A stretch of DNA of 40,285 nucleotides, taken from a virus. Under the pieces are notes generated by a model, which was not told where the DNA came from, ran no database searches, and saw only the letters and a list, made by a program, of their open reading frames with translations. The stretch covers positions 1 through 40,285 of the IMG/VR virus record IMGVR_UViG_3300005663_001645; one strand, written 5' to 3'. Shown in pieces: positions 21,633 through 38,480 of the stretch; within the stretch, counting starts at the first letter, position 1, and every line of letters starts with the position of its first letter. Made by a program: the position numbers and the translations under genes.

Positions 21633-24557
21633 ATGATAGCTCGCAAAGACGTAAGCATTATCCATAATCGTTGGCATGACGCCCAACGTGTCGATAAGAC
21701 AGATATGGATGTTGAACAAAATAGAGGCATTGATACAGATGCCGCAACCATTCATAATCATTTTGGTTCTGGCGTCTTGCTTGAAAGTCCAGAGCAACCG
21801 ATTATTTTTGACTCTGATAATTTAATAGCTAGCCAGGCAGCAATTGAGGCTGCGGGCAATTTTGATGGCATTGGCCTTGCTGCTCATTTGCAGCCAAGTG
21901 ATATAAACTTAGGAAATCAATTAGAGGTAAATCTTACTGGTTCTAGTGTAATTGGGCGTTTATCAATTAAAGTTGCAATTATAGGATTGTCATTTGATAA
22001 TACTGTTCAGATGGATAGGCTATATTTCTACAAGAATGAGAAACAGGTCACATCGAAGCATTATAAGCGAATTTTAACAATTTTCTTCAATGATTTTAAA
22101 GGAAACAATAACTGTTCTCGTAGTTTAGGCGGTAGAGTTGTAATTAGAGAGACTTCATCATTCCAGCTTTCCACAGATCCGATGATGGAAAGACAGGATG
22201 TTTCTCCTGATTTATTCTGGAGAGATTTTAAGGTATCAGACTCTGCAATATCATTATTTGATACGATACAGAATGGTATGGGGTCAGAATTTAGTGCGGA
22301 CGCACTATCGCTTGATATCAGCGGCACAACCGATCGTGAGATGGCAGCTAATGATGTGACATCTCAGGTTGGGCAGAAATTTCAAGCAAATACAGACAAT
22401 ATTCAGAAGGTAACTCTTCTTATTGGTGCCCGACAGAAGGATACAGGGCCTGAAGCAGATAAATTCGACTGGACCGGAGACATTGTCGTTAGCATTTATC
22501 CGCTTCAGACCAGCGTGAGCTGCCCAGTAGATATTGTACCATCATTGGCGATAGATTTTGAGCCGAGCAATGAGCCGATAGCACAGCTAAGCTTTGACCA
22601 GGCCTCGCTAGAAGATGCTGGCTATGTACTTACAAGCGTTGCTCAGCCGGTTGACTTTGTATTTAGTTCGACTAAGTTGGGCGATCCCGCTACCAGTAAT
22701 GTCGTCAAAGATCGTTTCTATGCTGTTACTATAAAGCGATCTGGATCTGCAACATCTGGCACGCTATTTTTAGGCGTAGGAATTAATAGGACCGCAGATT
22801 CCCGCGTAACACTATTTAGTGGAGTTTGGGTTGATGTTCCAGAAGAAGACTTATGGTTCCAAGTTTGGACTGATGCTGCAAAGATAGCCGATGGGCGTGG
22901 ATATGATGAAGGAAATGGAATTCAATATGATAAGACCACCACTGATGAATTAACCGGCGCAACCATAGATAATCAGGTTAGGCATTTATCATTTGCTGAT
23001 ACTGGAGAAAATATACTCAATATTGCTGTTATTCAGGCTATTGGGGAAGAAACCGTAACGGTACAAGACGAAAGAACTGGCAATAATGTAAATTCTCGCA
23101 GGAAATTCGTTCCGTCTTCTAGTTTTGTAGATGAGTCTGGATTAAGTTCGCTGCAAGGCGTTTCTAACCCATTTATTATTGGATGCACACAAGATACTAA
23201 CCCAAAACAAAATGCCATACTTGAGAAAGTCCAAACAATACCTGGCCTTGCAAGTGGCGACCAGTTTTGTATAGTAAATCCAGATCCTGATTCTCTCTCA
23301 TTGAACGTTATAGGAAGTAAGCTTATTCCGAATATAAGTAGCGCTTTCGATTATCGAATTTTTGGTGCCGATCTTTGTACTGATGGATATGGAGATGTAA
23401 ATGGCGATGGTTATATTGATGCAGCTGATATTGCTGCAGCATCACAGTTAATTGGCGAGAGTTTGTTATTCAATTCAACTCAACAAAAAATCATTGATGG
23501 ATACTTCTCAGCTCTTGAAGTATTGCGCGCAGATGTAAATGGCGATGGTTATGTTACCGCCACAGATGTTGACCTAATTACACAGTTCGTTAATAGACAA
23601 ATTAACGCATTCCCGGCTGGAGGTTCATTTACACACATATGTTATACTGTTCAGCAAAGCACAGGTAGATATGATGGGTATTTCGATTGTGATGGCTATG
23701 TGCGACTTGATGGTTATACTGGGCTTAATATTATAGATCCTGGTGACTTGTCTGCTGAAGAGCTTAAATATGATGGCTATTTAACCACACCAACGATAGA
23801 GGGCGACAGCACGTTTACTACTGTGCCATTCCCTGGGGTGACATATAGGATTGACCCACAACCATATTGGAGGCCAGAATCCCTCGCATTAAGCAGTGAA
23901 ACTAGAGCTGTGCCTGCGACATTCTTTGTTAGTACTTCTATAGACCCGCCAGATTGTTCTCAAACGCTTTCATTTGAGTGTACAGATAGAACGGCTGTCA
24001 CACCAGAGTGTGATCCTGGCAGAAATGACTTCCTAGTACCTGACAACCTAATTATAGGCAAGGGAGATATTGTCAGTCTGGATGGCACTAAACATAAGTT
24101 GGATTTTGAAATTGGAACAGTAATTTTGCAACTTCCTCAAACTCCTTTTGAAGAGGCTTCAATTAATCTATTCGATAAATTAGTAGCTGATCGTGGAGAT
24201 GGTATAACTAGAGGAGGTCTGCCCGCAATGAGGTATTCTGACTGTACAACGGTACAGGATGCAGACTTTGCATTAAATAGGATTAGATTTTCTGTTTCTG
24301 TGCAGGCTTTTGTGCCAAATATAGATGGATATACTGAGGAAGATGGTTATGGCGTTATTGTAGATGACATAATCGGTGTCCATTTGGATCATTCAACCGG
24401 AATCTTAAAACTTACAATCAAGGATCTTTTTGTGGACACGGTATTTATGACACTAGTTACAAAGTTGCAGATATTAGTATATCTGAAAAAGGCTGGGTGG
24501 AATAATGTCATTACAGTTGTCGAGCCGAGTCAGATCGCAGGATTGTTGAGCACATAA
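21633..24557 (+). CDS. Tail protein with dockerin-like calcium-binding pair
   Basis: This 974-residue protein starts 7 nt after the giant fibre gene. Residues 1-580 are beta-rich and unrecognised, beginning with a His/Asp-rich segment (ARKDVSIIHNRWHDAQRVD). Residues 588-599 (DVNGDGYIDAAD) and 634-645 (DVNGDGYVTATD) are two D-x-N-x-D-G-x-[IV]-x-x-x-D loops. Each is followed by a helix (IAAASQLIGE; VDLITQFVNRQ), the layout of a type I dockerin, though the 46-residue spacing exceeds the usual 32-36. Ten D-G-Y tripeptides lie in residues 584-906. Several Cys occur in the C-terminal third. It is likely an outer baseplate or fibre component, possibly calcium-dependent, docking onto a partner. It overlaps the next gene by one base (TAATG). 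Confidence 0.65.
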   Translation: MIARKDVSIIHNRWHDAQRVDKTDMDVEQNRGIDTDAATIHNHFGSGVLLESPEQPIIFDSDNLIASQAAIEAAGNFDGIGLAAHLQPSDINLGNQLEVNLTGSSVIGRLSIKVAIIGLSFDNTVQMDRLYFYKNEKQVTSKHYKRILTIFFNDFKGNNNCSRSLGGRVVIRETSSFQLSTDPMMERQDVSPDLFWRDFKVSDSAISLFDTIQNGMGSEFSADALSLDISGTTDREMAANDVTSQVGQKFQANTDNIQKVTLLIGARQKDTGPEADKFDWTGDIVVSIYPLQTSVSCPVDIVPSLAIDFEPSNEPIAQLSFDQASLEDAGYVLTSVAQPVDFVFSSTKLGDPATSNVVKDRFYAVTIKRSGSATSGTLFLGVGINRTADSRVTLFSGVWVDVPEEDLWFQVWTDAAKIADGRGYDEGNGIQYDKTTTDELTGATIDNQVRHLSFADTGENILNIAVIQAIGEETVTVQDERTGNNVNSRRKFVPSSSFVDESGLSSLQGVSNPFIIGCTQDTNPKQNAILEKVQTIPGLASGDQFCIVNPDPDSLSLNVIGSKLIPNISSAFDYRIFGADLCTDGYGDVNGDGYIDAADIAAASQLIGESLLFNSTQQKIIDGYFSALEVLRADVNGDGYVTATDVDLITQFVNRQINAFPAGGSFTHICYTVQQSTGRYDGYFDCDGYVRLDGYTGLNIIDPGDLSAEELKYDGYLTTPTIEGDSTFTTVPFPGVTYRIDPQPYWRPESLALSSETRAVPATFFVSTSIDPPDCSQTLSFECTDRTAVTPECDPGRNDFLVPDNLIIGKGDIVSLDGTKHKLDFEIGTVILQLPQTPFEEASINLFDKLVADRGDGITRGGLPAMRYSDCTTVQDADFALNRIRFSVSVQAFVPNIDGYTEEDGYGVIVDDIIGVHLDHSTGILKLTIKDLFVDTVFMTLVTKLQILVYLKKAGWNNVITVVEPSQIAGLLST
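23382..24350 (+). repeat. D-G-Y tripeptide cluster in the dockerin-like tail protein
   Basis: Ten Asp-Gly-Tyr tripeptides are encoded at 23382, 23406, 23496, 23544, 23673, 23691, 23709, 23772, 24324 and 24342. Several are spaced 18 nt (six residues). Two of them (23406, 23544) form part of the dockerin-like loops; the others sit outside such loops, as in YDGYFDCDGYVRLDGY. Asp is GAT throughout and the other codons vary. Confidence 0.75.
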
Positions 24558-25114
24558 TGGCGTTAATTGGATTGAAAATACCGGCTGAAATCTCTAGAAT
24601 CTTTACCAATGTAAAGGTGCCTGGGGAAAGAGACCCATCAGATCATGTTACTATGTTCTATATAAGCGGAGAGCTTAAGCCGAAAGATATCGCAAAAGTT
24701 TGTGCAGCCCTACCTGGTGTGTTGGAGAACATCACACCCTTTGAAGCTGTTGTTAAGACAATTACATGTTTTCCTGAGGGCGACGAAGGCGTACCTATAG
24801 TGGGCGATGTCATATCTAAAGAGTTGACGGGGTTAAGAATAAAAATCGTCAAATTGCTTAACAAAGAGAAAATTGAATACTCTAAGAAGTTTTCAAAATT
24901 CAAACCGCACGTAACCCTATCTTACAGTAATGATAAGATAGACAATATCAAGCTACCAACACCGGCAAAGTGGTTAGTAACTGAATTGATTTTATGGAGC
25001 GGCGATCAGGATGATAGTGGAATTATTATTACATTCCCATTATATGAAAAAGTGTCTGCGGCAAATATTGCCCTGGCGCTAGCTGATGTATTTTGTAAGT
25101 TGGCACATGTTTAA
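24557..25114 (+). CDS. 2H phosphoesterase (LigT / 2'-5' RNA ligase-like)
   Basis: This 185-residue protein carries the two H-x-T motifs that define the 2H family: HVTMFY at residues 30-35 and HVTLSY at residues 118-123, each in a strand, with PHVTLSYS the stronger match. The length fits single-domain members. 2H enzymes hydrolyse cyclic 2',3' or 2',5'/3',5' phosphodiester bonds. In phages they include the Acb1 anti-CBASS nucleases (T4 57B) that destroy cyclic-nucleotide alarms, and RNA-repair or CPDase enzymes. Which role applies here is not visible. The gene starts within the previous stop (TAATG) and so is cotranslated with tail genes, although it is unlikely to be structural. The C-terminal AANIALALADVFCKLAHV is a hydrophobic helix. 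Fold confidence is high; specific substrate is unknown. Confidence 0.8.
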   Translation: MALIGLKIPAEISRIFTNVKVPGERDPSDHVTMFYISGELKPKDIAKVCAALPGVLENITPFEAVVKTITCFPEGDEGVPIVGDVISKELTGLRIKIVKLLNKEKIEYSKKFSKFKPHVTLSYSNDKIDNIKLPTPAKWLVTELILWSGDQDDSGIIITFPLYEKVSAANIALALADVFCKLAHV

Positions 25115-25316
25115 AGTTGGCGATGTTATAACAGTGAGAGAGGCCGTTTGGGCTGGCATGCACTGTGGTTCTCCAGATGAGCTGCCAAGTGGACCAATTG
25201 TCTGGATACAGCCCACGGGTGCAAACCGGGTACAAATAGAGGGTAGTGGATATTTATTCAGGCCTAAGGATGTTGAATTATTATGGGCGGATATAGATGT
25301 TAAAGAATTTGAATAA
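25107..25316 (+). CDS. Small SH3-like/beta-barrel protein, unknown function
   Basis: The reading frame can start at ATG 25086 or ATG 25107. The second gives MFKVGDVITVREAVWAG, a typical beta-barrel opening, and an 8-nt overlap with the upstream gene like others in this window, so it is preferred (69 residues). The sequence reads as short strands with turns (SGPIVWIQPTG, NRVQIEGSGYLFRPKDVEL), as in KOW/SH3-like or DUF-type phage small proteins. It has Trp and Cys but no catalytic motif. The downstream RHH gene begins 1 nt after its stop. A regulatory or nucleic-acid-binding role is possible but not shown. Confidence 0.55.
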   Translation: MFKVGDVITVREAVWAGMHCGSPDELPSGPIVWIQPTGANRVQIEGSGYLFRPKDVELLWADIDVKEFE

Positions 25317-25317
25317 G

Positions 25318-25488
25318 ATGGTTTTACGAAGCATTTATCTTGATCCAGAGATGGATCAGGTGCTATCTAGATTGGCAGCGTCTAAATTAGTTACTAAATC
25401 TGTATTGATACGTAGTCTTTTACAAGAAGTTATTGGGAAACCCCCGCTCAAGAGGACGATGGATTGTAATTGCCTTGTCCCAGTTTGA
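25318..25488 (+). CDS. Ribbon-helix-helix (CopG-like) DNA-binding protein
   Basis: ATG 25318 follows the previous stop after 1 nt and gives 56 residues; an upstream in-frame ATG at 25297 would add seven residues (MLKNLNK) overlapping the preceding gene. The sequence VLRSIYLDPEMDQVLSRLA followed by VTKSVLIRSLLQEVIGK is a textbook ribbon-helix-helix arrangement: one strand that pairs in a dimer, then two helices. Such proteins are small transcriptional repressors or antitoxin-type DNA binders. The C-terminal tail ends DCNCLVPV, with two Cys of unknown purpose. No toxin gene is adjacent, so a phage regulator is the likelier reading. It sits exactly at the switch from the tail module to the glycan island. 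Confidence 0.65.
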   Translation: MVLRSIYLDPEMDQVLSRLAASKLVTKSVLIRSLLQEVIGKPPLKRTMDCNCLVPV

Positions 25489-25521: not shown

Positions 25522-25527
25522 AAGGAG
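25522..25527 (+). promoter_or_regulatory. Strong ribosome binding site deciding start 25533
   Basis: AAGGAG lies 5 nt before ATG 25533. This is one of the best SD sites in the window. It shows that translation of the thioredoxin-like lipoprotein originally began here rather than at ATG 25581, which has no SD. Confidence 0.7.
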
Positions 25528-25532: not shown

Positions 25533-25580
25533 ATGCGACGTGTTTTATTTGTAATTTTATGAGTTTTTAGCTGCCTGAGC
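25533..25580 (+). other. Signal-peptide leader interrupted by in-frame TGA
   Basis: From ATG 25533 the frame reads MRRVLFVIL, then TGA at 25560-25562, then VFSCLS, and joins ATG 25581 in the same frame. The combined stretch has a basic start, a hydrophobic core and Cys residues at candidate lipobox positions (VFSC, or SMGC just after), which is the layout of a bacterial lipoprotein signal peptide. A single TGA is the only interruption. A nonsense change from TGG or CGA, stop read-through, or a sequencing error would all give this. Confidence 0.65.
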
Positions 25581-26075
25581 ATGGGATGTAGTGAAAACAA
25601 CTACATGGTGCATCATGCAACAGTAGAAGCTGAGCAGGAACAAATCAGGTGGAACAATTATAGTCAAACGCTACTGTTAACGGCTCATTATACTAAAAAG
25701 CCCGCATTGATATATTTTCACTCAGATAGCTGTTCTGCCTGCGAAGATATGGAATCTAAAACCCTTTCTGATAGAAAGGTTATTTATTTGATTAACAATT
25801 CATATGTACCTATAAGGATTAGCGATTCTGAAGATCAATTCCACGATGTGGCAAATAGGTTTAATTTGAAGATAGACGGCGGTGTGCCAGTACCTTCCAT
25901 GATTATTTTGTCTTCAACCAATATTCCTAAAGAGATAATTAGAGTATCTGGATTTATAGATGCTATGACATTGGCCCTTGTGTTGGAGTCTTCTGTAACA
26001 ATTGATGTGCTTGCACGAGTTGAAGATAGTATAGATCAATTATTCCAATTGCCCGAAGAAGTAGTGGTCCCTTAA
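25581..26075 (+). CDS. Thioredoxin-fold protein (former lipoprotein), leader nonsense-interrupted
   Basis: From ATG 25581 the protein has 164 residues. ALIYFHSDSCSACEDMESK is the active-site strand and helix of a thioredoxin-like (thioredoxin_7/DUF255-type) domain, with C51-S-A-C54. A later block with a likely cis-Pro, GGVPVPSMIIL, and a final helix complete the fold. As a thiol-disulfide protein it would normally act outside the cytoplasm, given the lipoprotein leader encoded just upstream at 25533. The TGA at 25560 would remove export, leaving either a cytoplasmic form from 25581 or a low-level full-length form by read-through. Phage thioredoxin-like lipoproteins could help fold disulfide-containing virion or glycan enzymes, or act in superinfection exclusion; both are speculation. 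It precedes the first glycosyltransferase by 14 nt. Confidence 0.7.
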   Translation: MGCSENNYMVHHATVEAEQEQIRWNNYSQTLLLTAHYTKKPALIYFHSDSCSACEDMESKTLSDRKVIYLINNSYVPIRISDSEDQFHDVANRFNLKIDGGVPVPSMIILSSTNIPKEIIRVSGFIDAMTLALVLESSVTIDVLARVEDSIDQLFQLPEEVVVP

Positions 26076-26089: not shown

Positions 26090-27199
26090 ATGAGGGTAAA
26101 AATACAGCAGTTTTTGTGTGGAAAGTGCCATAGTTGGGCAGTTGTAGGCCAATGCATTGGAAGAGAGCTTTTAAAGCTTGACCATAATGTTGAATTCTTT
26201 TCAACAGATGGCATTAAAGATAAGTATGTGCCAGATTATTTAAGGCCGTTTCTGAAAGATAACAAGGCTGATTCTCCAAACTTTGTGGAACCACAAGGCA
26301 CGTATGGCATGCAAATTAGCTATACTGCCATGAAGAATTTTCCACACTTTTTAAGGCATGGAAATCAAAACAAATTTGCTATTTATAATTATGATGGCTC
26401 GGTTCTCCCAGAGCACTGGGCTAAGTACAGCCATTGCGTCGATAAGCTGCTACCATCTTCTGAATATTCGAAAAAGGTATTTCTTGACGCAAAGATACCA
26501 GAAGACAAATTAGAGGTAGTTCCACATGGTATCGATATTGAAGATTTCAATGTAAAGCCATATAAACTGAAGACGAAAAAGTCAATTAAGATTCTGAACG
26601 TATGTGGCCAGTTACATCGAAGGAAGAATCTATCAGGGATTTTAGACGCTTATGGTAAGGCATTCACAAAAGACGATGATGCTTGCTTGGTGTTGAAAGT
26701 GGCTGATAAGCTACCAGAGACTAAGTTTGAGGTTTCTTTCAGAGATCTATATAATAAGTGGCGTTCCAATAATAAAAACGGCCCAGAAGTTGAAGTCATT
26801 TATGATTATATAGACAGTATAGAGAGCCTATTCTTAGCTTGTGATATACATTATTCACTTTCAAACATTGAGTGTTTTCACATTCCATCATTGCAAAGTA
26901 TGGCTGCGAAAAAGCTCACTATACAATCAAATTATGGTGGCAGCGTAGATTTCATGAATGATAGCAATTCATTGCTGGTAGAAGGTAATATTGGGCGATG
27001 CCCGCCTAGATATCAATATTGGACACCATCGCCATATGCCGAAATGTTTATTCCAAACAGCGATGATGCTATTGAAAAACTTAGATATGCTGTCGATAAC
27101 TATGATAGTCTGATGGAAAGGCTTATGCCAGCCATGGAAAAGACGGTGGAACAATATACCTGGGCTAATGTGACAAAACAAATTATAGGTTTACAGTGA
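26090..27199 (+). CDS. Glycosyltransferase family 4-like (GT-B)
   Basis: This 369-residue protein has the two-domain GT-B layout. The N-terminal half ends with the linker VVPHGIDIEDF (about residue 145), a classic GT4 signature. The C-terminal half begins with ILNVCGQLHRRKNLSGIL, matching the 'G.....KN...ll.A' donor-binding strand, and contains SNIECFHIPSLQSMAAKK, the position of the usual E-x7-E nucleotide-sugar motif. Only the first Glu is clearly present; the second is not conserved in standard form. It would transfer a sugar from an NDP-sugar to a glycan or protein acceptor. It opens the glycan island, and its last four bases (GTGA) overlap the next gene's start, giving tight coupling. 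Confidence 0.8.
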   Translation: MRVKIQQFLCGKCHSWAVVGQCIGRELLKLDHNVEFFSTDGIKDKYVPDYLRPFLKDNKADSPNFVEPQGTYGMQISYTAMKNFPHFLRHGNQNKFAIYNYDGSVLPEHWAKYSHCVDKLLPSSEYSKKVFLDAKIPEDKLEVVPHGIDIEDFNVKPYKLKTKKSIKILNVCGQLHRRKNLSGILDAYGKAFTKDDDACLVLKVADKLPETKFEVSFRDLYNKWRSNNKNGPEVEVIYDYIDSIESLFLACDIHYSLSNIECFHIPSLQSMAAKKLTIQSNYGGSVDFMNDSNSLLVEGNIGRCPPRYQYWTPSPYAEMFIPNSDDAIEKLRYAVDNYDSLMERLMPAMEKTVEQYTWANVTKQIIGLQ

Positions 27200-28017
27200 T
27201 AGAACTAAAGAAAGATATAAAAAACACAACATCAGATGATGATATGTTCACTGTGCAAAAAGACAGCAGCATAGATTTGAGCATAATCGTGCCGGTATTC
27301 AACAATGTTAACTTTACAATGTTAGCCCTTGAGGGGCTTGGCAAGCTGCCTAGCAATTATGAAGTGCTTATTGTGGATAATAACAGCGAAGATGACACAG
27401 AAGAAGTAGTAGAAGAATTCATAACAAAAGCACCAAAAGACAGGGCCTCTATTTCTTATATAGGATGTCCTAGAAATATGGGATTTAGTGCAGCTAATAA
27501 TAAAGGATTCAAATATTCAAGAGGCAGGAATATTCTATTCCTAAACAATGATATTCGTATTGAGGATGATTTTGAAACGTGGCCAGAGGAAATGGTGCGA
27601 TTAGCTGAAGAGGGTTATATTATTGGCGCAGATGGCGGGCTGTTGGATGGTCAATTCAACTATGTAACAACGGGTACAAACTTGCCACGGACAAACCGTT
27701 GGTATTTGAGCGGCTGGTGTTTATGTGGATCCAGAGAAACTTTTGACAAGTTAAAGCTCAACCACTACTCTAATTCAGAAGGGCAAATTGTTGAGGGAAC
27801 ACAATCGTGGGGACCTTGGAACGAAAAGTTCTTCCTTTATTTTGAGGATGGTGATTTAACTTGGCGAGCAAGAGACCTTGGAATTGAGCTTAAGGAGATA
27901 AGAGTACCAATTCATCATTTCGGCAGAATTACAGGTCGTAAATATGGAATGTTTGGATATTATAAGAAGTCCCAAAGGATATTCAAGATAGAGTGGAAAG
28001 AAAGATATAGATCATGA
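27196..28017 (+). CDS. Glycosyltransferase family 2 (rhamnosyltransferase-like)
   Basis: GTG 27196 overlaps the previous stop in GTGA; ATG 27244 is a possible alternative start. The GT-A fold is clear: SIIVPVFNN, then LIVDNNSEDDT, then RNMGFSAANNKG, then ILFLNNDIRIEDDF with the metal-binding NND motif. WNEKFFLYFEDGDLTWRARD follows, with the acidic catalytic residues of the 'F.Y.ED.D...R....G' block typical of rhamnosyltransferase-type GT2 enzymes. There is no membrane segment, so it is a soluble enzyme. It overlaps the next small membrane-protein gene by 4 nt (ATGA). Confidence 0.9.
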   Translation: MIELKKDIKNTTSDDDMFTVQKDSSIDLSIIVPVFNNVNFTMLALEGLGKLPSNYEVLIVDNNSEDDTEEVVEEFITKAPKDRASISYIGCPRNMGFSAANNKGFKYSRGRNILFLNNDIRIEDDFETWPEEMVRLAEEGYIIGADGGLLDGQFNYVTTGTNLPRTNRWYLSGWCLCGSRETFDKLKLNHYSNSEGQIVEGTQSWGPWNEKFFLYFEDGDLTWRARDLGIELKEIRVPIHHFGRITGRKYGMFGYYKKSQRIFKIEWKERYRS

Positions 28018-28229
28018 TAAATCATTTAAAGAATATAGTTCTAATAGGGGCCATCCCGGTTATAATGTTTTGGATTGCCGTCCTTCTGGGATTTTGGTTT
28101 TATCCAGAGGACATGGATGGCGCAAGTAACCTGATAATGGTATTTGCCGGTACAGGTTGTTTGGTTGCACTATTCTTGTTAGTGCGGAACATAAGGCGTG
28201 GCATAGAGTACTTTCTTAAAAGGAAATAA
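28014..28229 (+). CDS. Small two-helix membrane protein
   Basis: This 71-residue protein has a transmembrane helix at about residues 8-28 (IVLIGAIPVIMFWIAVLLGF) and another at about 39-58 (NLIMVFAGTGCLVALFLLV), joined by an acidic loop (YPEDMDGASN). The basic tail is RNIRRGIEYFLKRK. By the positive-inside rule both ends probably face the cytoplasm. It sits between two GT2 genes with ATGA and TAATG overlaps, so it is cotranslated with them. It could anchor glycosyltransferases at the membrane or be a membrane effector such as a superinfection-exclusion or holin-like protein. No family is recognised. Confidence 0.6.
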   Translation: MINHLKNIVLIGAIPVIMFWIAVLLGFWFYPEDMDGASNLIMVFAGTGCLVALFLLVRNIRRGIEYFLKRK

Positions 28230-29053
28230 TGATCTATGTATTGACGCTAACTTGGAATGGCCTTGATAGTCTTAAAAAGCTCAAAGGTGGTCTAATAAGA
28301 AATCTCAACAATGTTGATACAGATTACGACGCAGTATGGTGTGTCCGTGACAATGGTTCTACAGATGGGACTGCTGAGTGGTTAAATGAAATTAGGAAAT
28401 ACGGAAATGTTGCGACGCTTCCTTTACTTATAGATCACAATAGAGATAATTTTGCCCAGGGAGTTAACTCTTTAGCAAATATGGTTTATGACGAATACGA
28501 TTATGCTAATTCTAATGATTTTTTCTTGCTTCTAAATAATGATGTAGAATTTGTTGATGATACGTCACTATTAAAAATGATGCATCTGATGAAAGATCCT
28601 AAGGTTGGTGTGGTTGGTGCCAGGCTGCTATACAGTGGTACGAATAAATTGCAGCACGGTGGTGTCATATTCGGACGTAGGTATAGCAACATGCCATATC
28701 ATTATCGGCACCAAGAAGAATCTGATAAACACGCGGAGAAGAACCGATACTTTCAAGCAGTAACTGCGGCATGTTGTCTAATTAGGGCTAAGGCGTTTCA
28801 GAAGATGAGTGAGATATATTTTTGGAGTTTTGAAGATACAGATTTATGCTTAAGAATCAAGAAGGCCGGATGGAAGATTGCATATTGTGGAGAAACCAGA
28901 ATCTACCATGAGGAAAGTGCGTCATTGAAGAAGAATCCGGTCAACAAAATGTTCCTCCAACAGAATGTAGAGCACTTCAAGAGTAAGTGGTTTGGCAAAT
29001 ATGAGCTTGACCACGAGAAGTATTTGAAAAATCCTAACTATAAAGTGATTTAG
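28229..29053 (+). CDS. Glycosyltransferase family 2
   Basis: This 274-residue GT-A protein follows AAAAGGA and overlaps the previous stop by one base (TAATG). It shows YVLTLTWNG, VRDNGSTDGT, FFLLLNNDVEFVDD (metal-binding NND), and FWSFEDTDLCLRIKKAGW followed by RIYHEESAS, the conserved 'ED.D...R....G......H..S' end of rhamnosyltransferase-like GT2 enzymes. It is related in layout to the GT2 gene at 27196 but is clearly diverged, so it is not a recent duplicate. It would add a sugar to the same or a linked glycan. Confidence 0.9.
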   Translation: MIYVLTLTWNGLDSLKKLKGGLIRNLNNVDTDYDAVWCVRDNGSTDGTAEWLNEIRKYGNVATLPLLIDHNRDNFAQGVNSLANMVYDEYDYANSNDFFLLLNNDVEFVDDTSLLKMMHLMKDPKVGVVGARLLYSGTNKLQHGGVIFGRRYSNMPYHYRHQEESDKHAEKNRYFQAVTAACCLIRAKAFQKMSEIYFWSFEDTDLCLRIKKAGWKIAYCGETRIYHEESASLKKNPVNKMFLQQNVEHFKSKWFGKYELDHEKYLKNPNYKVI

Positions 29054-30015
29054 TGGGGATGCGCAAATTAACCACTAAATACTTTCCATTCTCACCTGGC
29101 ATCCCTTGGCAAATAAAGAATGGAAGATACGTTCGGCCAGAGGTTTCTGGCTCTATATTGCGGTCTGTATTAAAAGATAAAGATATTGTTGTAGCAGCTT
29201 TTGGCGGCTTATTGGAGTCGTTTTTTTCATTATCTATTCTAGAGGCCATAAACTATATGATGCCTGGTCATAATCTGTTTTGGTGTGGCCGTTCAGAGTA
29301 TCATTCATTGGTTGAGCAAAATGGTCTAGCTAAGCCGTTTGATATGATAGATCAATCAGTTCTGGATCGATTTCCTGTGCCCGTTTTTTTTGACAAAGAG
29401 AATCGTGCCTATTTTAATTGCCTGAACAACTATTTAAGTGTAAATTCTTATTATTTGTCGCCAGGATACAACGATCTTAGGCCGGCAGTCAAGCAAATCG
29501 CAGAAAAAAGCACAACATCTTGGGAGGTGCGCTTCAGTCCCCAATTAAGGCACCACGAGAGCCGTCAGGAGCCCTTTCCATCAAGGAGAAGGGCTCCGTA
29601 TGTATTGGTGCTCCCAGACCGTACAGGGCTGTCTGAGTGCGAGATAAGCTGTCTTAATTGGGATGCCCGCAAAATACGCTCTTTCTCCACAATGTTACAG
29701 CCAGAGTTTAAACTAATTGTGATGACCAATAATCCTGGAATATATTTCAACACCAATGCTGAGGTTATTCCATTCACGTTAGAGGATATAGTACGCCTAT
29801 TACCACGAGCTTATGCTGTTTTATCTAAAGATGTTGATATTTTATTGCTGGCAATAGCTTTGTCCAATACAAAAATATTATCAAACGCTGTCTGCGCCCC
29901 AATGAGCTTGGAGAAGAATGCTAAATTCCTCTTAAAAAATAATGATATATACACATCTGAAGGCCTGTCTCCAGAAACCGCATGGGGGCATATAACAAAA
30001 TTAGGAAATATATGA
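29053..30015 (+). CDS. Probable GT-B-like glycan protein, family not recognised
   Basis: GTG 29053 overlaps the previous stop (TAGTG); ATG 29059 is an alternative two codons later. The 320 residues have an N-terminal Rossmann-like segment (KDIVVAAFGGLLESFFSLSIL, then NLFWCGRSEYHSLVEQNG). A linker with RRRAPYVLVLPDRTGL and a second Rossmann-like half follow (FKLIVMTNNPG, AYAVLSKDVDILLLAIALSN). This resembles GT9/heptosyltransferase-type GT-B architecture with a conserved-looking acidic surface, but diagnostic residues are absent. The local order within a chain of glycosyltransferases supports the call. It could instead be an ADP-heptose or polysaccharide-processing relative. Confidence 0.5.
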   Translation: MGMRKLTTKYFPFSPGIPWQIKNGRYVRPEVSGSILRSVLKDKDIVVAAFGGLLESFFSLSILEAINYMMPGHNLFWCGRSEYHSLVEQNGLAKPFDMIDQSVLDRFPVPVFFDKENRAYFNCLNNYLSVNSYYLSPGYNDLRPAVKQIAEKSTTSWEVRFSPQLRHHESRQEPFPSRRRAPYVLVLPDRTGLSECEISCLNWDARKIRSFSTMLQPEFKLIVMTNNPGIYFNTNAEVIPFTLEDIVRLLPRAYAVLSKDVDILLLAIALSNTKILSNAVCAPMSLEKNAKFLLKNNDIYTSEGLSPETAWGHITKLGNI

Positions 30016-30767
30016 CTGTCTCAATAATGATTGTAACATATAATCGTCTTAGTTTGACAAAGCAAACGTTAGAAAACCTGTTTAAAGCCACAAAATATCC
30101 ATATAATCTCATATTTGTAGACAATAACTCAAGCGATGGGACGATAGGCTTTCTAGATAAGACGCTACATGGCAAGATGGAACAGTTTAATTCATTTAAA
30201 GATTATTCTATAATATCTAATAGAGACAATAGAGGGATTGCCATTGGAAGAAACCAGGGATTAGCAGAAGCCGTTACGAAATATGACAGTGAATGGTTTG
30301 CTACACTTGATAATGATGTATGGGTTCCAGAGGGCTGGTTAACTGAATGTGTCGAAATTTTACAAGCCAACAGACAATATGCTTCTATAGGGGCCAATAT
30401 GGAGAATGTAAAGTACCCTATTGTTAATTTGAATGGAAAGGAGTTTCAAAACAAACCTCAAGGAAATTTAGGTACCGCCTGCATGGTGTTTAATAGATCT
30501 TTGCATAAAATGCTTGGTTATTTTAATTACAAAGACTATGGAAAATATGGTGAAGAGGATGCAGACTGGGGGATGCGCATCCGTGTAATAGGCCTCAAGC
30601 TTGGATATATCAAAGAGAACGGAAAGCATCTAGGCGAGGGACAGCACGACAAAGGAGAGTATAGAGAGTTTAAAACGGCATCTCACAAGAGGAATTTGGC
30701 AAAGTTTAACGCAAACTGTCGAGACTATGCCCGGCGCATTAAGCCACTATACATAAATTTTCGATGA
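30012..30767 (+). CDS. Glycosyltransferase family 2
   Basis: ATG 30012 overlaps the preceding TGA (ATGA); an upstream frame extension to 29982 has no reason to be used. The 251-residue protein starts MTVSIMIVTYNR, followed by LIFVDNNSSDGT, NRDNRGIAIGRNQG and WFATLDNDVWVPEGW, whose DND serves as the metal-binding DxD. YGEEDADWGMRIRVIG is the acidic catalytic block. The C-terminal GEGQHDKGEYREFK is polar. It is a soluble single-domain GT-A enzyme. It ends in ATGA overlap with the 709-aa gene, so the two are coupled. Confidence 0.9.
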   Translation: MTVSIMIVTYNRLSLTKQTLENLFKATKYPYNLIFVDNNSSDGTIGFLDKTLHGKMEQFNSFKDYSIISNRDNRGIAIGRNQGLAEAVTKYDSEWFATLDNDVWVPEGWLTECVEILQANRQYASIGANMENVKYPIVNLNGKEFQNKPQGNLGTACMVFNRSLHKMLGYFNYKDYGKYGEEDADWGMRIRVIGLKLGYIKENGKHLGEGQHDKGEYREFKTASHKRNLAKFNANCRDYARRIKPLYINFR

Positions 30768-32893
30768 AAATTGAGATCTTACCTAATGAGTTAAAAAAAT
30801 ATACAGTATCTTCTAAATCTTGTGTTTTTCAAAAAGACGGTATAAGAATTGGCCCGAGATTTGGAAGAATTACTTTCGACTTATCTGAAATAAATGCTAC
30901 TAAATGTGATTTACATTTTAAAAGGATATCAGGTGATGGTAAGACAACAATTAAGTCGGAAAATACAATTGATGCAATAGTGGTGTCAAAAGTATCTCAA
31001 ACTTTCAGCATCCATATAAGAAATGAAGTTTATATAACTCGCGAGATTGGTAAAGGAGAAGTTGTTCTATCTAGTATAACGGCTCATTCTAATAAAGAAG
31101 AAAATATGCCTAATTGGAGAGAAATCATAAAACGGTGTAGCAAGTATAAATGCATTAGAATGGTTGGTGGACAACTATTTGCTAGCTCTGGCGGGTTTAT
31201 AGAGGATAACAATACTATAAAGAAGATTTCGACCAATCCGCCCGGTATGTTCACTCGTGAGGAAAATAGAATTAAATTTCTAGGCTCTTGCGAAATTTTA
31301 GACATACATATGGGCGGTAAAGATCCAATCTCTGTGTCATCCCCATATGCTCACCGAGAAAAACCAGGCCCCAATATTTCAACCTCTGTAGAGCGGCCGG
31401 TTAATTCAATCAAAATTGCCAATGTGCCTAATCAGATTCCGTTCCCGCTTCCTACGCAACAGGATCAGTCTCAAATGAACAACAGTATAGTATTTAACTC
31501 CACGGCACTAAATGCGTTTGCAAAATTTGGTCAGATTAAAAATAAACTTGTTAAACCTATACGCAGTAACAATAAAAACTATCTACTTATTAGAAAGGGT
31601 GCGCGCTGCTCATTATCACTCTCTGAAATACAGGACAATTCTGAATATATTGTTGTAATTAAAGCTAAGAAGCTTAATGGGAATGGTAAATTGTGGCTTA
31701 CATTTGCCTCTAAAGAAAATGATTTCACTGATAGAGTTGGAGCCGTACTTAGTGGCAATATAAGTAATAAGTATATTACGTTAAGAACGAAAACGTGTAA
31801 ATATGGGCAGTTTCATAAGCTTAATATATCAATGGAAGATACTTGCTCTGGAGAAGTTCTAATAGAAGAAATACTTATTGTTGAAAATATAGGCATTACG
31901 CGAACAAAGGGCCTTATAGAGTATGGGTTTAGCACTGCAGAGGCCCGGGATATTCCACCGTCATTATCATTTGGGCTTTCACTTAACCTAGACGATGATA
32001 CATTTGATCCGATTTATCAGGGGGCAAAAAGTTTTGCCAAATATGTCCCGATAAAAACAACAGAGACAGTGGATACGATCTCTGGAAGTGTGGCCACAAC
32101 TACAATATCTGGGATGAGCTGGTTAAATAAGGTTAGCCCTATATTTCCAGAGCTTAGAGTTATAAAGAACACGAATGCGATAGGTGGCGAAACCTTAATG
32201 ATTGGCAGGATGGGATCGTTGCTGCCGGCCAAGCGTATATGGGTTGATGCTTTTTTTGAGAAGGAAGCTATTGATAGCGATTTGGCGGTTTTAAGGAGTG
32301 CTGCGCAAATTTTTAGTCCGTCATTGTTAAATGTTGATCTGCTAAAATCAAAACTTCCTAATGTCAAAGTAGATCTGTGTACCAGGCCGGTCCCGTATAT
32401 AACGCCAAAATCAGTTCCATATTTTGAAAACAAAGAATTCGCATTATGTTTTCATAGAGGCCATGAGTCAACGTATCGAATCATAAAGGCCTGGAATCCT
32501 CAGCTTCCCAAAATGGCGCTAGTCGGAGCCAGAGGGGGCTTCCCCGACACTGTAATACCTGTTAATGAATATATGCCCTATGAAAATCTATTATTCTTAA
32601 TTTCCAAATGCAAGTTCATAATAGACATACCTACATATAGAAACTATAATTCCGCATTTTTGGATTTGGCACATCATATGGGCGTACCAATTATAAGTTC
32701 AAACTGGTTTGTCATTGATAAGGATAATTGTATTTTCCTGCCACCTGTTGAAGACATTGGGAAGCTGAAATCTCCAACTACGGAGGCAATCATAGATGGT
32801 GCAAATAGGGCTAATAATATGCCCAGGAAGAATGCCAGGACAGATCAATATAAAGCGAAGTTTATAGCAAGTTCTGCTAGATTATTTATTTAA
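30764..32893 (+). CDS. Beta-sandwich plus GT-B-like fusion protein
   Basis: This 709-residue protein starts in an ATGA overlap. Residues 1-100 are a beta-rich domain with alternating strands (GPRFGRITFDLSEI). Residues about 110-170 look Rossmann-like. Residues 265-385 form a beta-sandwich with carbohydrate-binding-module-like strands (NNKNYLLIRKGARCSLSLSE, GKLWLTFASKEN). Residues about 400-709 look like a GT-B pair of half-domains, containing YMPYENLLFLISKCKFIIDI, then ALLD-like AFLDLAHHMGVPIISSNW, the usual acceptor/donor region with helix-strand pattern. No catalytic residue is certain. It faces the opposite-strand fucosyltransferase gene and overlaps it tail-to-tail by 8 nt. Confidence 0.5.
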   Translation: MKIEILPNELKKYTVSSKSCVFQKDGIRIGPRFGRITFDLSEINATKCDLHFKRISGDGKTTIKSENTIDAIVVSKVSQTFSIHIRNEVYITREIGKGEVVLSSITAHSNKEENMPNWREIIKRCSKYKCIRMVGGQLFASSGGFIEDNNTIKKISTNPPGMFTREENRIKFLGSCEILDIHMGGKDPISVSSPYAHREKPGPNISTSVERPVNSIKIANVPNQIPFPLPTQQDQSQMNNSIVFNSTALNAFAKFGQIKNKLVKPIRSNNKNYLLIRKGARCSLSLSEIQDNSEYIVVIKAKKLNGNGKLWLTFASKENDFTDRVGAVLSGNISNKYITLRTKTCKYGQFHKLNISMEDTCSGEVLIEEILIVENIGITRTKGLIEYGFSTAEARDIPPSLSFGLSLNLDDDTFDPIYQGAKSFAKYVPIKTTETVDTISGSVATTTISGMSWLNKVSPIFPELRVIKNTNAIGGETLMIGRMGSLLPAKRIWVDAFFEKEAIDSDLAVLRSAAQIFSPSLLNVDLLKSKLPNVKVDLCTRPVPYITPKSVPYFENKEFALCFHRGHESTYRIIKAWNPQLPKMALVGARGGFPDTVIPVNEYMPYENLLFLISKCKFIIDIPTYRNYNSAFLDLAHHMGVPIISSNWFVIDKDNCIFLPPVEDIGKLKSPTTEAIIDGANRANNMPRKNARTDQYKAKFIASSARLFI

Positions 32894-33824
32894 TATCGCT
32901 GTGAAACTTATTGATAATTTTCTCGTAACCAACTTTAAACGAGGAAAGTTGTTGTAATTTTTGTGTTCTGAATATTTGGCCTCGTATATCGCCTACCCAG
33001 TTTTTGTATCTTTCTTCTGTGAATCCCTCGATACGACCGATTAATCCTTTTTCATTAATTCTGAATTTCCTACCAGTTTTCTGCACATAGTCCCTTAGGT
33101 CTATGTAGGAATGCTTCGGGAACTTGTGGTCATCTATATTATAGCAGCCCATATAGATAGGTATGGTCCCGGCGCGCCATACATCGGGGAGTTTCTCTGT
33201 GAAGTATCCATGTGTGTAAATTGGGTCATGAGAGTTCTCTGTGCAAATGGAGAATTTTGCCTTTCTTAGGACATCATGTTTTGATTTGGCGTTACCGCGA
33301 AAATATGGCCTTTTAATTGGCATTTGACCATACCAAGACACTTTATACTTGGACTTTTTATGCAGCAAGTCTGCTAATTGTAAGCGCAAAGAGTATAGTT
33401 CTGAATGGTGTCTTGATGACTTATTATTTGCAACAAATACGATTTCATCCGTTTTTTTATTCCATTCCACCCAGCTTTCCGCCAATTTCTCCGCTGACGG
33501 GAAGTGGTGATAAGATGGGTGATTCATGGCAACGACCTTGTTTTTCGATTTGGGAAAAGCCTTGGTAGCCCAAGAGAAAATGTATTTGAATTTTGAAACA
33601 AATTTGGGGTCATAGTCTCTATCTAATACACAATAGGGTTCAACAACCCATATACTATCGTGTGGTTTCGGTTTTCTTATTGAGTACCAACCCATTCCTA
33701 TATTTATTTTATTAGGGTCATATTTGGGGCTACGCCAAATCTCTCCTTTTTCATTTTCGAAAACTTTAGTCACAGGGCCGGTTTGTGGCGAATATACTAT
33801 GTTTATTATTGCTTTATTTGGCAT
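32886..33824 (-). CDS. Alpha-1,3-fucosyltransferase, GT10 family
   Basis: This is the only gene on the minus strand in the window. The 312-residue product has the GT10 signature at about residues 190-230: FSICTENSHDPIYTHGYFTE, then KLPDVWRAGTIPIYMG. This includes the Glu and Lys that bind GDP-fucose and the GTIPIYMG strand. A downstream KFPKHSYIDLRDY and the N-terminal half (acceptor domain) complete the family layout. No transmembrane anchor is visible, as in bacterial soluble members. It would move fucose from GDP-fucose onto GlcNAc or a similar sugar. No GDP-fucose synthesis genes (gmd, fcl) are in this window, so the donor would come from the host or from elsewhere in the genome. The start at 33824 faces the divergent GT2 gene. 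Confidence 0.9.
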   Translation of the reverse strand: MPNKAIINIVYSPQTGPVTKVFENEKGEIWRSPKYDPNKINIGMGWYSIRKPKPHDSIWVVEPYCVLDRDYDPKFVSKFKYIFSWATKAFPKSKNKVVAMNHPSYHHFPSAEKLAESWVEWNKKTDEIVFVANNKSSRHHSELYSLRLQLADLLHKKSKYKVSWYGQMPIKRPYFRGNAKSKHDVLRKAKFSICTENSHDPIYTHGYFTEKLPDVWRAGTIPIYMGCYNIDDHKFPKHSYIDLRDYVQKTGRKFRINEKGLIGRIEGFTEERYKNWVGDIRGQIFRTQKLQQLSSFKVGYEKIINKFHSDIK

Positions 33825-33839
33825 GTTTTGCTCATAATT

Positions 33840-33849
33840 GTTATATAAC
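33840..33849. promoter_or_regulatory. Palindromic TATA-like element between divergent genes
   Basis: GTTATATAAC is a perfect 10-bp palindrome in the 46-nt gap between the minus-strand fucosyltransferase start and the GT2 start at 33871. TATATA reads the same on both strands, so it could serve as a -10 box in both directions. On the + strand, TTGGCA at 33819-33824 is 17 nt upstream of TATATA. Expression of the inverted gene needs its own promoter, which supports this call. It remains unproven. Confidence 0.35.
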
Positions 33850-33870
33850 GAGAATGGCGAGGCAATGAAT

Positions 33871-34614
33871 ATGAAAAAGATGGTTGTACTGGTTCCGAGC
33901 TATAAAAATAGCCTTTGGTATGAGAGAAATCTTTCATCTATCATATCACAGGATTATGATAATTTTACAGTTGTTTACGTAGACGACTGCTCGCCAGATA
34001 ATACCGGAGATCTTGTTGCAAAATATATAGCCAAACATAATCAGCAAGACAGGGTAAAATTGATACGCAATTCAGAACGCAAAGGTGCCTTGTGTAATCT
34101 ATACGATATGATCCATGATTGTGACGACGACGATATAGTGGTCACATTAGATGGTGATGATTGGTTTGCTAATGCTGTAGTGTTAAAAACAATAAACGAA
34201 GTTTACCAGAACAATGACGTTTGGATGACTTATGGAAGCTATCAAGATTGTCCAGGCATGACACGCGGGTGTTGTAAGCCATATGAAAATCAAATTATAA
34301 ACGCTAACTTGTTTAGAAACGTACCATGGAGAGCAAGTCATCCTAGAACTTTTTATGCTTGGCTTTTCAAAAAGATCAAGAAAGAGGATTTTTATGACCC
34401 AAATGGCAAATGGCTAGATATGGCTTGGGATTTATCTTTTATGATGCCAATGCTAGAGATGTCTGGGAGTAGGCATAAATATGTGCATAGCATATTGTAT
34501 TCTTATAACAATGAAAATCCAATTTCAGACTACAAAGTAAATCAAGCCAGACAAGGTGCGCTTGATAGGTGGATTCGTTCAAAACCCAAATATAATAAAA
34601 TAGATCAGGCTTAA
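33871..34614 (+). CDS. Glycosyltransferase family 2
   Basis: The open frame runs upstream to a TTG at 33838, but ATG 33871 has GGCGAGG 8 nt before it and is preferred; ATG 33865 is too close to that SD. The protein (247 residues) begins MKKMVVLVPSYKN and shows VVYVDDCSPDNT, LIRNSERKGAL and DIVVTLDGDDWF, the typical GT2 strand order with DGD as the metal-binding motif. The second half has TRGCCKPYENQIINANLF and WDLSFMMPMLEMSG, fitting a GT-A enzyme of the EpsJ/WcaA type. It is soluble. It begins the + strand run after the inverted gene. Confidence 0.88.
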   Translation: MKKMVVLVPSYKNSLWYERNLSSIISQDYDNFTVVYVDDCSPDNTGDLVAKYIAKHNQQDRVKLIRNSERKGALCNLYDMIHDCDDDDIVVTLDGDDWFANAVVLKTINEVYQNNDVWMTYGSYQDCPGMTRGCCKPYENQIINANLFRNVPWRASHPRTFYAWLFKKIKKEDFYDPNGKWLDMAWDLSFMMPMLEMSGSRHKYVHSILYSYNNENPISDYKVNQARQGALDRWIRSKPKYNKIDQA

Positions 34615-34653
34615 TAGTATTGAAAGAAAATACAATAGATTTTTGGAGACTAT

Positions 34654-35385
34654 ATGACTGTTACATTTATAGAGTTAGGCGATAAGGGGCAATTAGGTAA
34701 TCAATTATTTCAAATAAGTAGCGTAATAGGCTCTGCTTTGTACCATAATGATGATTGGATACTGCCCAAATGGTTGTATTTTAATTACTTCAATATTCCT
34801 GCTAATTACTTTTCTAATGAAATACATATAAATAGGATACATAACGAATTATGTTTTCATTATGCAGGCATACCCAGTTTTAAAGGTGAAGTGGTTAGTT
34901 TAAGTGGTTATTATCAAGCATCTAAATATTGGCAAGATTATGCGAATGTAGTATTGAAATTACTAATGCCTAAACGGTTAGGGAGCTATAAAGATTATAC
35001 AGCAATACACGTTAGACGAACAGACTATCTAATTCACACAGAATGTTACAGTATACTGGATATGCATAACTATTATGAGAAAGCTATGATGGCGTGTCCA
35101 AGCAAAAATTATCTAATATTTTCAGATGATCTTGATTGGTGTAAAAAACACTTTGTGGGGAATGAATTCAGTTTTTCTGAAGAGAGACATCCAGCAATTG
35201 ATTTAGGCAACATGATAGGCTGTAAAAATAACATTATAGCTAATTCCTCATTTTCTTGGTGGGCAGCCTGGTTAAATAAAACACCAGATAAGAAAATAGT
35301 TGCTCCGGTCACATGGTTTGGGCCTAAATTGTCATTAACACATGATACAAAAGATCTTTTACCGAAAGAGTGGATTAAAGTATGA
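34654..35385 (+). CDS. Alpha-1,2-fucosyltransferase, GT11 family
   Basis: The 243-residue product has the three GT11 motifs: GQLGNQLFQ at residues 12-20, IHVRRTDYL around residue 119 (motif I, GDP-fucose binding), and IIANSSFSWWAAWLN near residues 194-208. YLIFSDDLDWCKK lies between them. This matches alpha-1,2-fucosyltransferases such as WbsJ and FutC; the length is slightly short of the usual 280-300. It begins with TTGGAG 5 nt upstream. With the GT10 gene next door, it implies a fucosylated glycan able to carry both 1,2- and 1,3-linkages, as in Lewis- or blood-group-type structures. The actual product is not shown. Confidence 0.92.
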   Translation: MTVTFIELGDKGQLGNQLFQISSVIGSALYHNDDWILPKWLYFNYFNIPANYFSNEIHINRIHNELCFHYAGIPSFKGEVVSLSGYYQASKYWQDYANVVLKLLMPKRLGSYKDYTAIHVRRTDYLIHTECYSILDMHNYYEKAMMACPSKNYLIFSDDLDWCKKHFVGNEFSFSEERHPAIDLGNMIGCKNNIIANSSFSWWAAWLNKTPDKKIVAPVTWFGPKLSLTHDTKDLLPKEWIKV

Positions 35386-35453
35386 AAGAATTAGCGGAAA
35401 AGTTTAACATCTCGCCCGGAACCGTCAGATCCATTAAAAGGGGAGACACATGA
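35382..35453 (+). CDS. 23-residue helix-turn-helix peptide or remnant
   Basis: ATG 35382 overlaps the fucosyltransferase TGA (ATGA). The 23 codons encode LAEKFNISPGTVRSIKRG in their centre, a clear helix-turn-helix pattern ('LA..F.IS..TVR.I..G') like the DNA-recognition end of HNH or phage regulatory proteins. It is too short for a full HTH fold, so it may be a remnant of a larger DNA-binding or endonuclease gene, or a tiny coupled ORF. Its stop lies inside the CACATGA...TCATGTG inverted repeat. Confidence 0.4.
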   Translation: MKELAEKFNISPGTVRSIKRGDT

Positions 35454-35462
35454 TCTCATGTG
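35447..35462. promoter_or_regulatory. Perfect 16-bp inverted repeat, operator-like
   Basis: CACATGATCTCATGTG has 7-bp arms (35447-35453 and 35456-35462) around a 2-nt spacer. It overlaps the end of the HTH mini-ORF and lies 9 nt before a strong SD. Symmetric sites of this size usually bind dimeric regulators. A hairpin with a 2-nt loop is unlikely, which favours DNA binding over termination. Not proven. Confidence 0.4.
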
Positions 35463-35470
35463 AAAATCAT

Positions 35471-35479
35471 AAAGGAGGT
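35471..35479 (+). promoter_or_regulatory. Near-consensus ribosome binding site for start 35487
   Basis: AAAGGAGGT sits 7 nt before ATG 35487 and is the strongest SD in the window. It shows that the intended start of the CgeB-like glycosyltransferase is 35487, upstream of the frameshift. Confidence 0.7.
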
Positions 35480-35486
35480 ATAAAAC

Positions 35487-35525
35487 ATGGTTAAGGTTTT
35501 ATTTTTGCCCCTTAACTATGGATGA
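35487..35525 (+). other. Frameshifted N-terminus of the CgeB-like glycosyltransferase
   Basis: ATG 35487 encodes MVKVLFLPLNYG and then meets TGA at 35523. This is a typical first Rossmann strand of a GT-B glycosyltransferase. A +1 shift near 35520-35523 would join it to EGDVIQKGVYDAFREAG in the downstream frame. Removing the seven bases ATGAAGG (35518-35524) restores YGDVIQKG in frame, so a 7-bp insertion is a plausible cause. Confidence 0.6.
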
Positions 35526-36474
35526 AGGTGATGTCATCCAAAAGGGCGTATATGATGCTTTTCGCGAAGCTGGTTGTGACTTAGAGGTATTTGATTACTT
35601 TGCTATTTATCAAAACAACAAGATGCGCATACATACGGTACGGCAGCAGTTCTATAATAAAGCTCTCGAATATAAGCCAGATCTAATACATATGCAAATA
35701 CAGCATACTAGAGTGATTGATAACCGTATTGTATCTAAAATAAAGCGCGCACTTCCAAAAACTATCATAACAAATTGGACTGGTGATGTTAGAAATGCTG
35801 TACCCAATACGTTTAAAAACATTGCCAATGTAGCTGATTATAACTTTATATCCTCTACAGGTCAGCTCGAAATGTTTAAGAGAGAAATCAAAAAGGATGT
35901 TAAATACTTGCAAATTGGATATGATCCAAAGCTTTATTATCCAGGCACAGTGCTTAAATCAAATTTTGAATGGGATTGTATTTTTATTGCCAATAACAAT
36001 ACCAAAGAGGGCTATCCCGGCCGAACTGCCAGGACACAGACATGTAGCGGTTTAAGATCGGTATTTGGAGATAGATTTGCCCTATTTGGTAATGGGTGGC
36101 CGAAGGGGTTTAAATCCAAAGGATCTATAGATCAAAAAAGAGCAGCATCCGCCTATCATAAAAGTGTATGCGCCGTTAGTGTCAGTCATTATAATGATTT
36201 GGATCATTATTTTTCAGATAGGCTCTTAATGTGTATGGCATCTGGTCGTCCTACCATTTCCCTTAAATTCCCTAAATGGGAATCTTACTTCACAAATAAC
36301 TGCGATTTGGTAATGGCTGACTCGGTTGATGATATAGCTAATAAAGTTAGATACTTAAAACAAAACCCAGAGTTGGCGAGCTATATTGGCAAATCTGGTG
36401 CAGAAAAAGTTCTAGCAGAACACACTTACACCAGCAGGATTAACGATCTTTTAAGCATAATTGGTCTTAAATAA
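35518..36474 (+). CDS. CgeB-like glycosyltransferase, start-proximal frameshift
   Basis: The 318-residue frame from ATG 35518 lacks the first Rossmann strand, which is encoded in another frame at 35487. It contains LIHMQIQHTRVID, KTIITNWTGDVRN and KYLQIGYDPKLYYPG, then WDCIFIANNNTKEGYPGR, FALFGNGWPKG and SDRLLMCMASGRPTISLKF. This is the layout of CgeB/Glyco_trans_1_2-type GT-B enzymes. Loss of strand one would damage the nucleotide-sugar domain unless frameshifting rescues it. It overlaps the FkbM gene by one base (TAATG). The rest of the frame has no further lesion, suggesting a recent event, a programmed shift, or an assembly error. Confidence 0.75.
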   Translation: MDEGDVIQKGVYDAFREAGCDLEVFDYFAIYQNNKMRIHTVRQQFYNKALEYKPDLIHMQIQHTRVIDNRIVSKIKRALPKTIITNWTGDVRNAVPNTFKNIANVADYNFISSTGQLEMFKREIKKDVKYLQIGYDPKLYYPGTVLKSNFEWDCIFIANNNTKEGYPGRTARTQTCSGLRSVFGDRFALFGNGWPKGFKSKGSIDQKRAASAYHKSVCAVSVSHYNDLDHYFSDRLLMCMASGRPTISLKFPKWESYFTNNCDLVMADSVDDIANKVRYLKQNPELASYIGKSGAEKVLAEHTYTSRINDLLSIIGLK

Positions 36475-37085
36475 TGGATGAAGATGCACATTATCAGACT
36501 GTAATGAGATGGTATAAGGCCGATCGAGAGCAGAATCTTAGGCTGGCTTACCCGCTTACAGAAGATAGCGTAGTATTTGATCTTGGCGCCTATGATGGTG
36601 CTTGGTCTAAAGAAATACATTGTAGGTATAAATGTACCGTCCACGCATTTGAGCCCGTTAGTTCATGTTACAAGAAAGCCGCTGCAAATCTCCGAGATAT
36701 TAGGAAAATACATCTACATACCTATGCATTAAAAAGTTTTAACGGGACAGCTGATATTTTTGTTGATAAAGATGGTTCCAGTTTCCATAATATAACAAGC
36801 TCTAAAGAGACTGTAGAGGTGAAATCAGTTGTTGACGTTATTAAAGAGCTGAAAATTGATTTTATAGATTTGATTAAACTTAACATAGAGGCAGATGAGT
36901 ATGAGGTTTTGGAGGCCCTGATTGCCGAAAACATGTTAGCTATGTTTGGAAGTTTGCAGATACAGTTTCATAGAGATATACCAAACTATAAAGCTAGGCG
37001 ACAAAAGATATATGATCAATTATTAAAAACTCACAAAAGAGATTACAATTTTGATTTTGTGTGGGAGGGCTGGTCAAAGGCATAA
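36474..37085 (+). CDS. FkbM-family methyltransferase
   Basis: This 203-residue class I SAM-dependent methyltransferase has motif I VFDLGAYDGAWS (residues 34-45), CTVHAFEPV for the second strand acidic residue, and IDLIKLNIEADEYEVLEAL, a hallmark of FkbM-type O-methyltransferases. These enzymes often cap sugars in glycan or natural-product pathways. It is soluble. It begins in the stop of the frameshifted GT (TAATG) and ends 2 nt before the next GT start. Confidence 0.88.
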   Translation: MDEDAHYQTVMRWYKADREQNLRLAYPLTEDSVVFDLGAYDGAWSKEIHCRYKCTVHAFEPVSSCYKKAAANLRDIRKIHLHTYALKSFNGTADIFVDKDGSSFHNITSSKETVEVKSVVDVIKELKIDFIDLIKLNIEADEYEVLEALIAENMLAMFGSLQIQFHRDIPNYKARRQKIYDQLLKTHKRDYNFDFVWEGWSKA

Positions 37086-37087
37086 TT

Positions 37088-37879: not shown

Positions 37880-38480
37880 TTTAGATGGCGTATTGGTTGA
37901 GGCAAGAGAGTGGCACTATGTGTCTCTGAATAGAGCTTTGGAAGAAATAGCTGGCACTACGATAAACCGCGAAGAACATGAAGGCGATTTTAATGGCTTA
38001 CCGACCAGAAGGAAGCTTGCTAAACTTGTTTCACTGGGCAGGGTTAAAAGCGAAGATCGCGACAGAATATGGAGCAAAAAACAAGACCTTACAAAGGATA
38101 CCATACGTGAGTTAGGAAAATACGACAAGGTAAAGGAAAGGCTACATCATTTTACGGCAAACAGCGGCTTTGTATCTGTTTGTGTAACAAATAGCATAAC
38201 TGAAACCGCTGAATTGATGTTAAAATATACCGGGCAATTGGATTACATGAAATTTTTCATCTCCAATCAGATGGTTACGCACCCAAAGCCCAGTAGTGAG
38301 CCTTATATTGTAGCAATGGTGCGGCTGGGACTAGAGCCAAGTGAATGTATAATTGTAGAAGATTCTGAGGTTGGAATGCAATCTGCCGTGCCAACGGGCG
38401 CGCCCATATGGGGTGTAAATAATTGCGCAGATGTTACCGAAGAGAGTTTTATGGAATTTATGAAGAACAGGGCAAAATGA
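37857..38480 (+). CDS. HAD-superfamily phosphatase
   Basis: This 207-residue protein begins MIKAILYDLDGVLVEA: D8 is the phospho-accepting Asp and D10 the acid/base of DxDxV. Motif II Thr/Ser is in VCVTNS (about residue 108-113), the Lys of motif III is in HPKPSSEPY (about 144), and motif IV acids lie in IIVEDSEVGMQSA (about 165-177). The cap domain between residues 15 and 80 is of the beta-phosphoglucomutase type. It would remove or move a phosphate on a small sugar phosphate. Followed within 1.3 kb by a sugar nucleotidyltransferase, it may act in making an activated sugar. The ATG overlaps the upstream gene by 23 nt and follows AGGAAAA. Confidence 0.85.
   Translation: MIKAILYDLDGVLVEAREWHYVSLNRALEEIAGTTINREEHEGDFNGLPTRRKLAKLVSLGRVKSEDRDRIWSKKQDLTKDTIRELGKYDKVKERLHHFTANSGFVSVCVTNSITETAELMLKYTGQLDYMKFFISNQMVTHPKPSSEPYIVAMVRLGLEPSECIIVEDSEVGMQSAVPTGAPIWGVNNCADVTEESFMEFMKNRAK

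Follow-up and report, generated by a model that had tools for sequence, protein, structure and literature searches.

A 40,285-base linear virus record from IMG/VR, a single metagenomic record analysed over its whole length (hereafter the window), carries a gene for a thioredoxin-fold lipoprotein whose signal peptide is interrupted by an in-frame TGA at codon 10. A related giant phage has an intact syntenic ortholog, TGA is used in the standard way as a stop codon, and the gene lies in a spot of variable content. The explanation we favour, with a probability of a little under 60%, is that a nonsense mutation arose recently in the gene for an exported redox protein that the phage can do without.

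Results

We infer that the window is a fragment of a giant myophage. Its tail and baseplate genes include sheath initiator and baseplate J domains, and the nearest cultured match of its baseplate protein is in Bacillus phage G, at 30% identity. A 974-aa structural protein contains a dockerin type I-like calcium-binding repeat pair (23393-23571; Pfam Dockerin_1, 1.8e-10), which is kept in the related locus L005 described below. The stretch from 26090 to 39788 is a phage-borne glycan-building cassette, made up of an extended series of glycosyltransferases (Pfam groups 1 and 2, families 10 and 11) with methyltransferases and a HAD hydrolase among them.

The interrupted gene (25533-26075, plus strand) is preceded by the Shine-Dalgarno sequence AAGGAG (25522-25527, plus strand). 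The original prediction called this a strong site, and its duplex energy at ATG 25533, -8.7 kcal/mol, is indeed the best among the 28 window genes, matched or beaten by 0.8% of sampled background positions. The TGA (25560-25562, plus strand) falls in the hydrophobic core of the signal peptide, the leader reading MRRVLFVIL*VFSCLSMGC, and beyond it the frame stays open up to a TAA at 26073-26075, passing through the next in-frame ATG (25581-25583), the lipobox Cys19 codon (SMGC, 25587-25589) and the thioredoxin domain's CxxC redox motif, CSAC (25731-25742), all on the plus strand. With any hydrophobic residue in place of the TGA, the leader has a PROSITE-like lipobox ending at Cys14 and, by inspection, another at Cys19, in agreement with the earlier view that it would be a complete lipoprotein signal if the TGA were read as Trp. 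Under the standard code the TGA interrupts the continuous signal peptide that, with a lipobox Cys, characterizes a bacterial lipoprotein; given a sense codon 10 the window gene would have both, as its homologs L005 and L017 do.

The read-through translation matches Pfam Thioredox_DsbH (PF03190) above the cut-off (E 1.7e-7), with further Pfam matches to Thioredoxin_7 and Thioredoxin_2, and phmmer finds Thermus thioredoxin and DsbD among PDB sequences (E 3.8e-6 to 9e-4). An AlphaFold model built from three sequences has a mean pLDDT of 81, exceeding 90 in the domain and low in the leader and linker, and Foldseek with this model returned Thermus thioredoxin and DsbD-gamma (E 1.8e-8 and 2.8e-8). 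The Pfam match, the DsbD-gamma fold match and CSAC place the protein in the thioredoxin fold by both its fold and its CxxC motif, and the domain is as intact as had been predicted. It resembles the C-terminal (gamma) domain of DsbD and Thermus thioredoxin 2lst in these two respects (Foldseek E 1.8e-8 to 7e-8, ~20-24% identity), but unlike these it is a stand-alone short phage lipoprotein without the DsbD-alpha and DsbD-beta parts, and its leader is TGA-interrupted. With the DsbH disulfide reductase it shares the Pfam match and the character of a small exported thioredoxin-fold protein; a Spirochaete homolog (L091) is likewise a lipoprotein-like protein. We use the label DsbD-gamma/DsbH-like and reject DsbH itself because the protein scores 21.4 bits against the NCBIfam DsbH equivalog (NF043050), far under its cut-off of 190. 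Our literature search found no on-point paper on a phage thioredoxin lipoprotein.

The only ortholog found lies at positions 11424-11945 of L005, in the related giant-phage contig IMGVR_UViG_3300018080_006015, and is ~33% identical, with 67% of third positions different. The gene order there is a 990-aa structural gene, a 142-aa gene, the ortholog and then glycosyltransferases, and the flanking structural gene and glycosyltransferase are the same as those of the window gene. Besides synteny, the two genes have their CxxC and their leader register in common: the L005 leader, MKKLIFVILLALFCFSFGC, starts at the equivalent ATG, aligns without gaps to that of the window, has Leu (TTG) at codon 10 and, as in the window, takes 19 codons to reach the lipobox Cys19 (SFGC). 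In L005 the signal peptide is intact and the stop codon overlaps the start of the next gene; in the window the two genes are 14 bases apart. Because the equivalent ATG, the same codon count to Cys19 and a leucine in place of the stop are all present in L005, the signal peptide is ancestral and the stop is the departure; nor is the leader a product of chance, since an intact homologous leader matches it in register. The comparison of the disputed base in a relative thus returned a leucine codon, from a gene that has its leader rather than one that starts at the place of 25581 with no upstream signal.

Two distant phage homologs (L016 and L017) both begin with hydrophobic leaders, of which that of L017 fits the lipobox pattern and that of L016 does not. 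In each, the thioredoxin-fold leader protein precedes what are apparently the same unknown genes (L016 1312-3201 in G003; L017 1495-3027 in G007), and these surroundings look like a second conserved neighbourhood of this protein type. A profile scan of bacterial genomes added three distant homologs. No second close copy was found by a single-protein scan, by tblastn in cultured phages, by two profile scans or by an exact-pattern scan in which any codon was allowed at the TGA position.

The lipoprotein gene is part of the cargo of a variable spot, which related giant phages fill differently. In the relatives, the interval that the structural gene and the glycosyltransferase enclose is empty, holds one or two other ORFs or holds longer insertions, and the lipoprotein gene was found by profile search in 4 of 23 records, the window counted. 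The variable cargo of the window also comprises a 2H phosphoesterase/LigT-like protein (24557-25114, plus strand; Pfam 2_5_RNA_ligase2, 5.9e-11) and two small ORFs of 76 and 63 aa (25086-25488, plus strand), the second with a weak ribbon-helix-helix match. The right edge of the spot is the flanking glycosyltransferase (26090-27199, plus strand; PHROG 2170, 4.4e-22), which is present in the L002-L012 loci. We also observed a weak match of the LigT-like protein to the anti-CBASS protein Acb1 (E 0.012, below the cut-off); it is possible that this is a counter-defence gene.

TGA terminates 8 of the 28 listed window genes, and the 12,710 window codons include 132 TGG and a single internal TGA. When the window was compared with 20 relative loci (~29 kb of the window and ~354 kb of the relative loci aligned), the TGA at 25560 was the only premature stop across the aligned window, so that its description as a lone stop holds. 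The other interior stops listed for the relative loci lay at gene ends or at or upstream of starts; four were checked by translation around them and the others judged from gene coordinates. In stretches of seven relatives, 213 tRNA genes were parsed, and none of them has the UCA anticodon that a suppressor would have. A TGA-recoded genome (code 4 or 25) was rejected given the single internal TGA, the genes ended by TGA and the lack of a UCA tRNA among those parsed. An RNA element at the TGA finds no backing either, as the downstream RNA has no unusual fold (z -1.03) and no Rfam match. ARAGORN also called stop-reading tRNAs in relatives, with anticodon TTA in G003 and CTA in G013, G016 and G017 (L075 c11588-11662; L081 8637-8710; L085 2888-2978; L087); TAA and TAG still terminate ORFs in these relatives.

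Discussion

The intact gene product would be a thioredoxin-fold lipoprotein of the DsbD-gamma/DsbH type, exported via its signal peptide and lipid-anchored at Cys19, with a probable role in disulfide exchange in the host cell envelope during infection. One base change that turns codon 10 into a stop would halt translation within the signal peptide, and for that reason little or no product is likely to be made. We take the change to be probably a real base, and a young one, because nothing has yet been lost from the ribosome-binding site, the leader register, the CxxC or the whole of the frame downstream. Loss of the gene is evidently tolerated, as it is cargo in a spot of variable content. Against a reading of decay, the frame of a dead gene would soon be closed, and no other window gene has a ribosome-binding site as strong as the one kept here; this fits with youth and also with some continued function. 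Of the three options in the original prediction (recent export loss, a cytoplasmic isoform from 25581 and TGA readthrough), the first is the best supported, as a loss of export or expression or as the base error that the prediction had proposed to exclude by a check.

Since the searches turned up no other sequence from this phage species, a mutation and a sequence error are inseparable. A sequencing, assembly or population-consensus error, with a sense codon at 25560 and an intact lipoprotein, is in our judgement unlikely, if a reading to be taken seriously. One substitution would be enough, the codons one step off TGA including TTA (Leu) and TGG (Trp), and the window is one metagenomic record with no second copy; the other window genes, however, align cleanly to relatives, which argues that the window consensus is good. 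A frameshift or homopolymer indel would not explain the TGA because the register with L005 is preserved. Alternatively, a cytoplasmic thioredoxin isoform might arise by re-initiation at ATG 25581, 18 bases past the stop. This ATG is in frame and near the stop, with the complete domain downstream, but it has no Shine-Dalgarno sequence (-2.2 kcal/mol, against a background median of -2.1), which leaves an SD-driven internal start unsupported, and it is leader codon 17, a Phe in L005, with no homolog beginning there. Re-initiation after a nine-codon leader is possible, with nothing found in its support, and we consider such an isoform quite improbable. Insertion of selenocysteine is scarcely credible. 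Some of the NCBIfam matches are thioredoxin-like selenoproteins, but the TGA is in the signal peptide, away from the CSAC redox site, and no unusual hairpin follows it; a selenoprotein, which would have its UGA at the redox position with a SECIS hairpin after it, was rejected on these grounds.

Low-level readthrough of the TGA by a near-cognate tRNA-Trp, by which a small amount of lipoprotein would still be made, seems to us improbable, and nothing in the window supports it directly. In five jumbo relatives, representing four lineages as G016 and G017 are near-duplicates, the tRNA-Trp(CCA) genes (L071 c7628-7701; L077 c10949-11020; L079 8057-8130; L084 11830-11902; L086 9274-9346) carry in every case a mismatch (U.U or C.A) in the bottom pair of the anticodon stem, as compared to 13/208 other tRNAs of the same genomes, and A24 is apparent, by reading the sequences, in four of the five. 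A tRNA-Trp with a 4-bp stem can read UGA with its top pair open, and G24A favours readthrough; bottom-open tRNA-Trp(CCA) accounts for 267/38,615 in 42,109 bacterial genomes (PMC13092985). The UGA reading in that work was, however, tested for top-open and not bottom-open tRNA-Trp, TGA is a common stop in these relatives, with no internal TGA found in their aligned genes, no tRNA gene was found within the window, and no stimulatory RNA structure lies downstream of the TGA. One of the odd tRNA-Trp genes, searched against cultured phages, gave no match. The mismatch in the tRNA-Trp of the relatives may have an effect on UGA reading. It might further be speculated that giant phages of this clade carry an open-stem tRNA-Trp(CCA) that leaks at UGA, and that the leader UGA is kept so that production of the exported redox protein stays low and depends on that tRNA; we hold this to be very unlikely. 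Readthrough by tRNA-Trp is therefore offered as a testable idea and not as an explanation, and the evidence does not require a phage that uses TGA to place a redox protein.

At face value, the interrupted gene is a minor instance of gene loss in phage cargo, or else of a base error. The odd tRNA-Trp common to the relatives represents a directly testable candidate for UGA readthrough. The case also brings to light a small group of giant-phage thioredoxin-fold lipoprotein-like genes, apparently uncatalogued, three of them intact.
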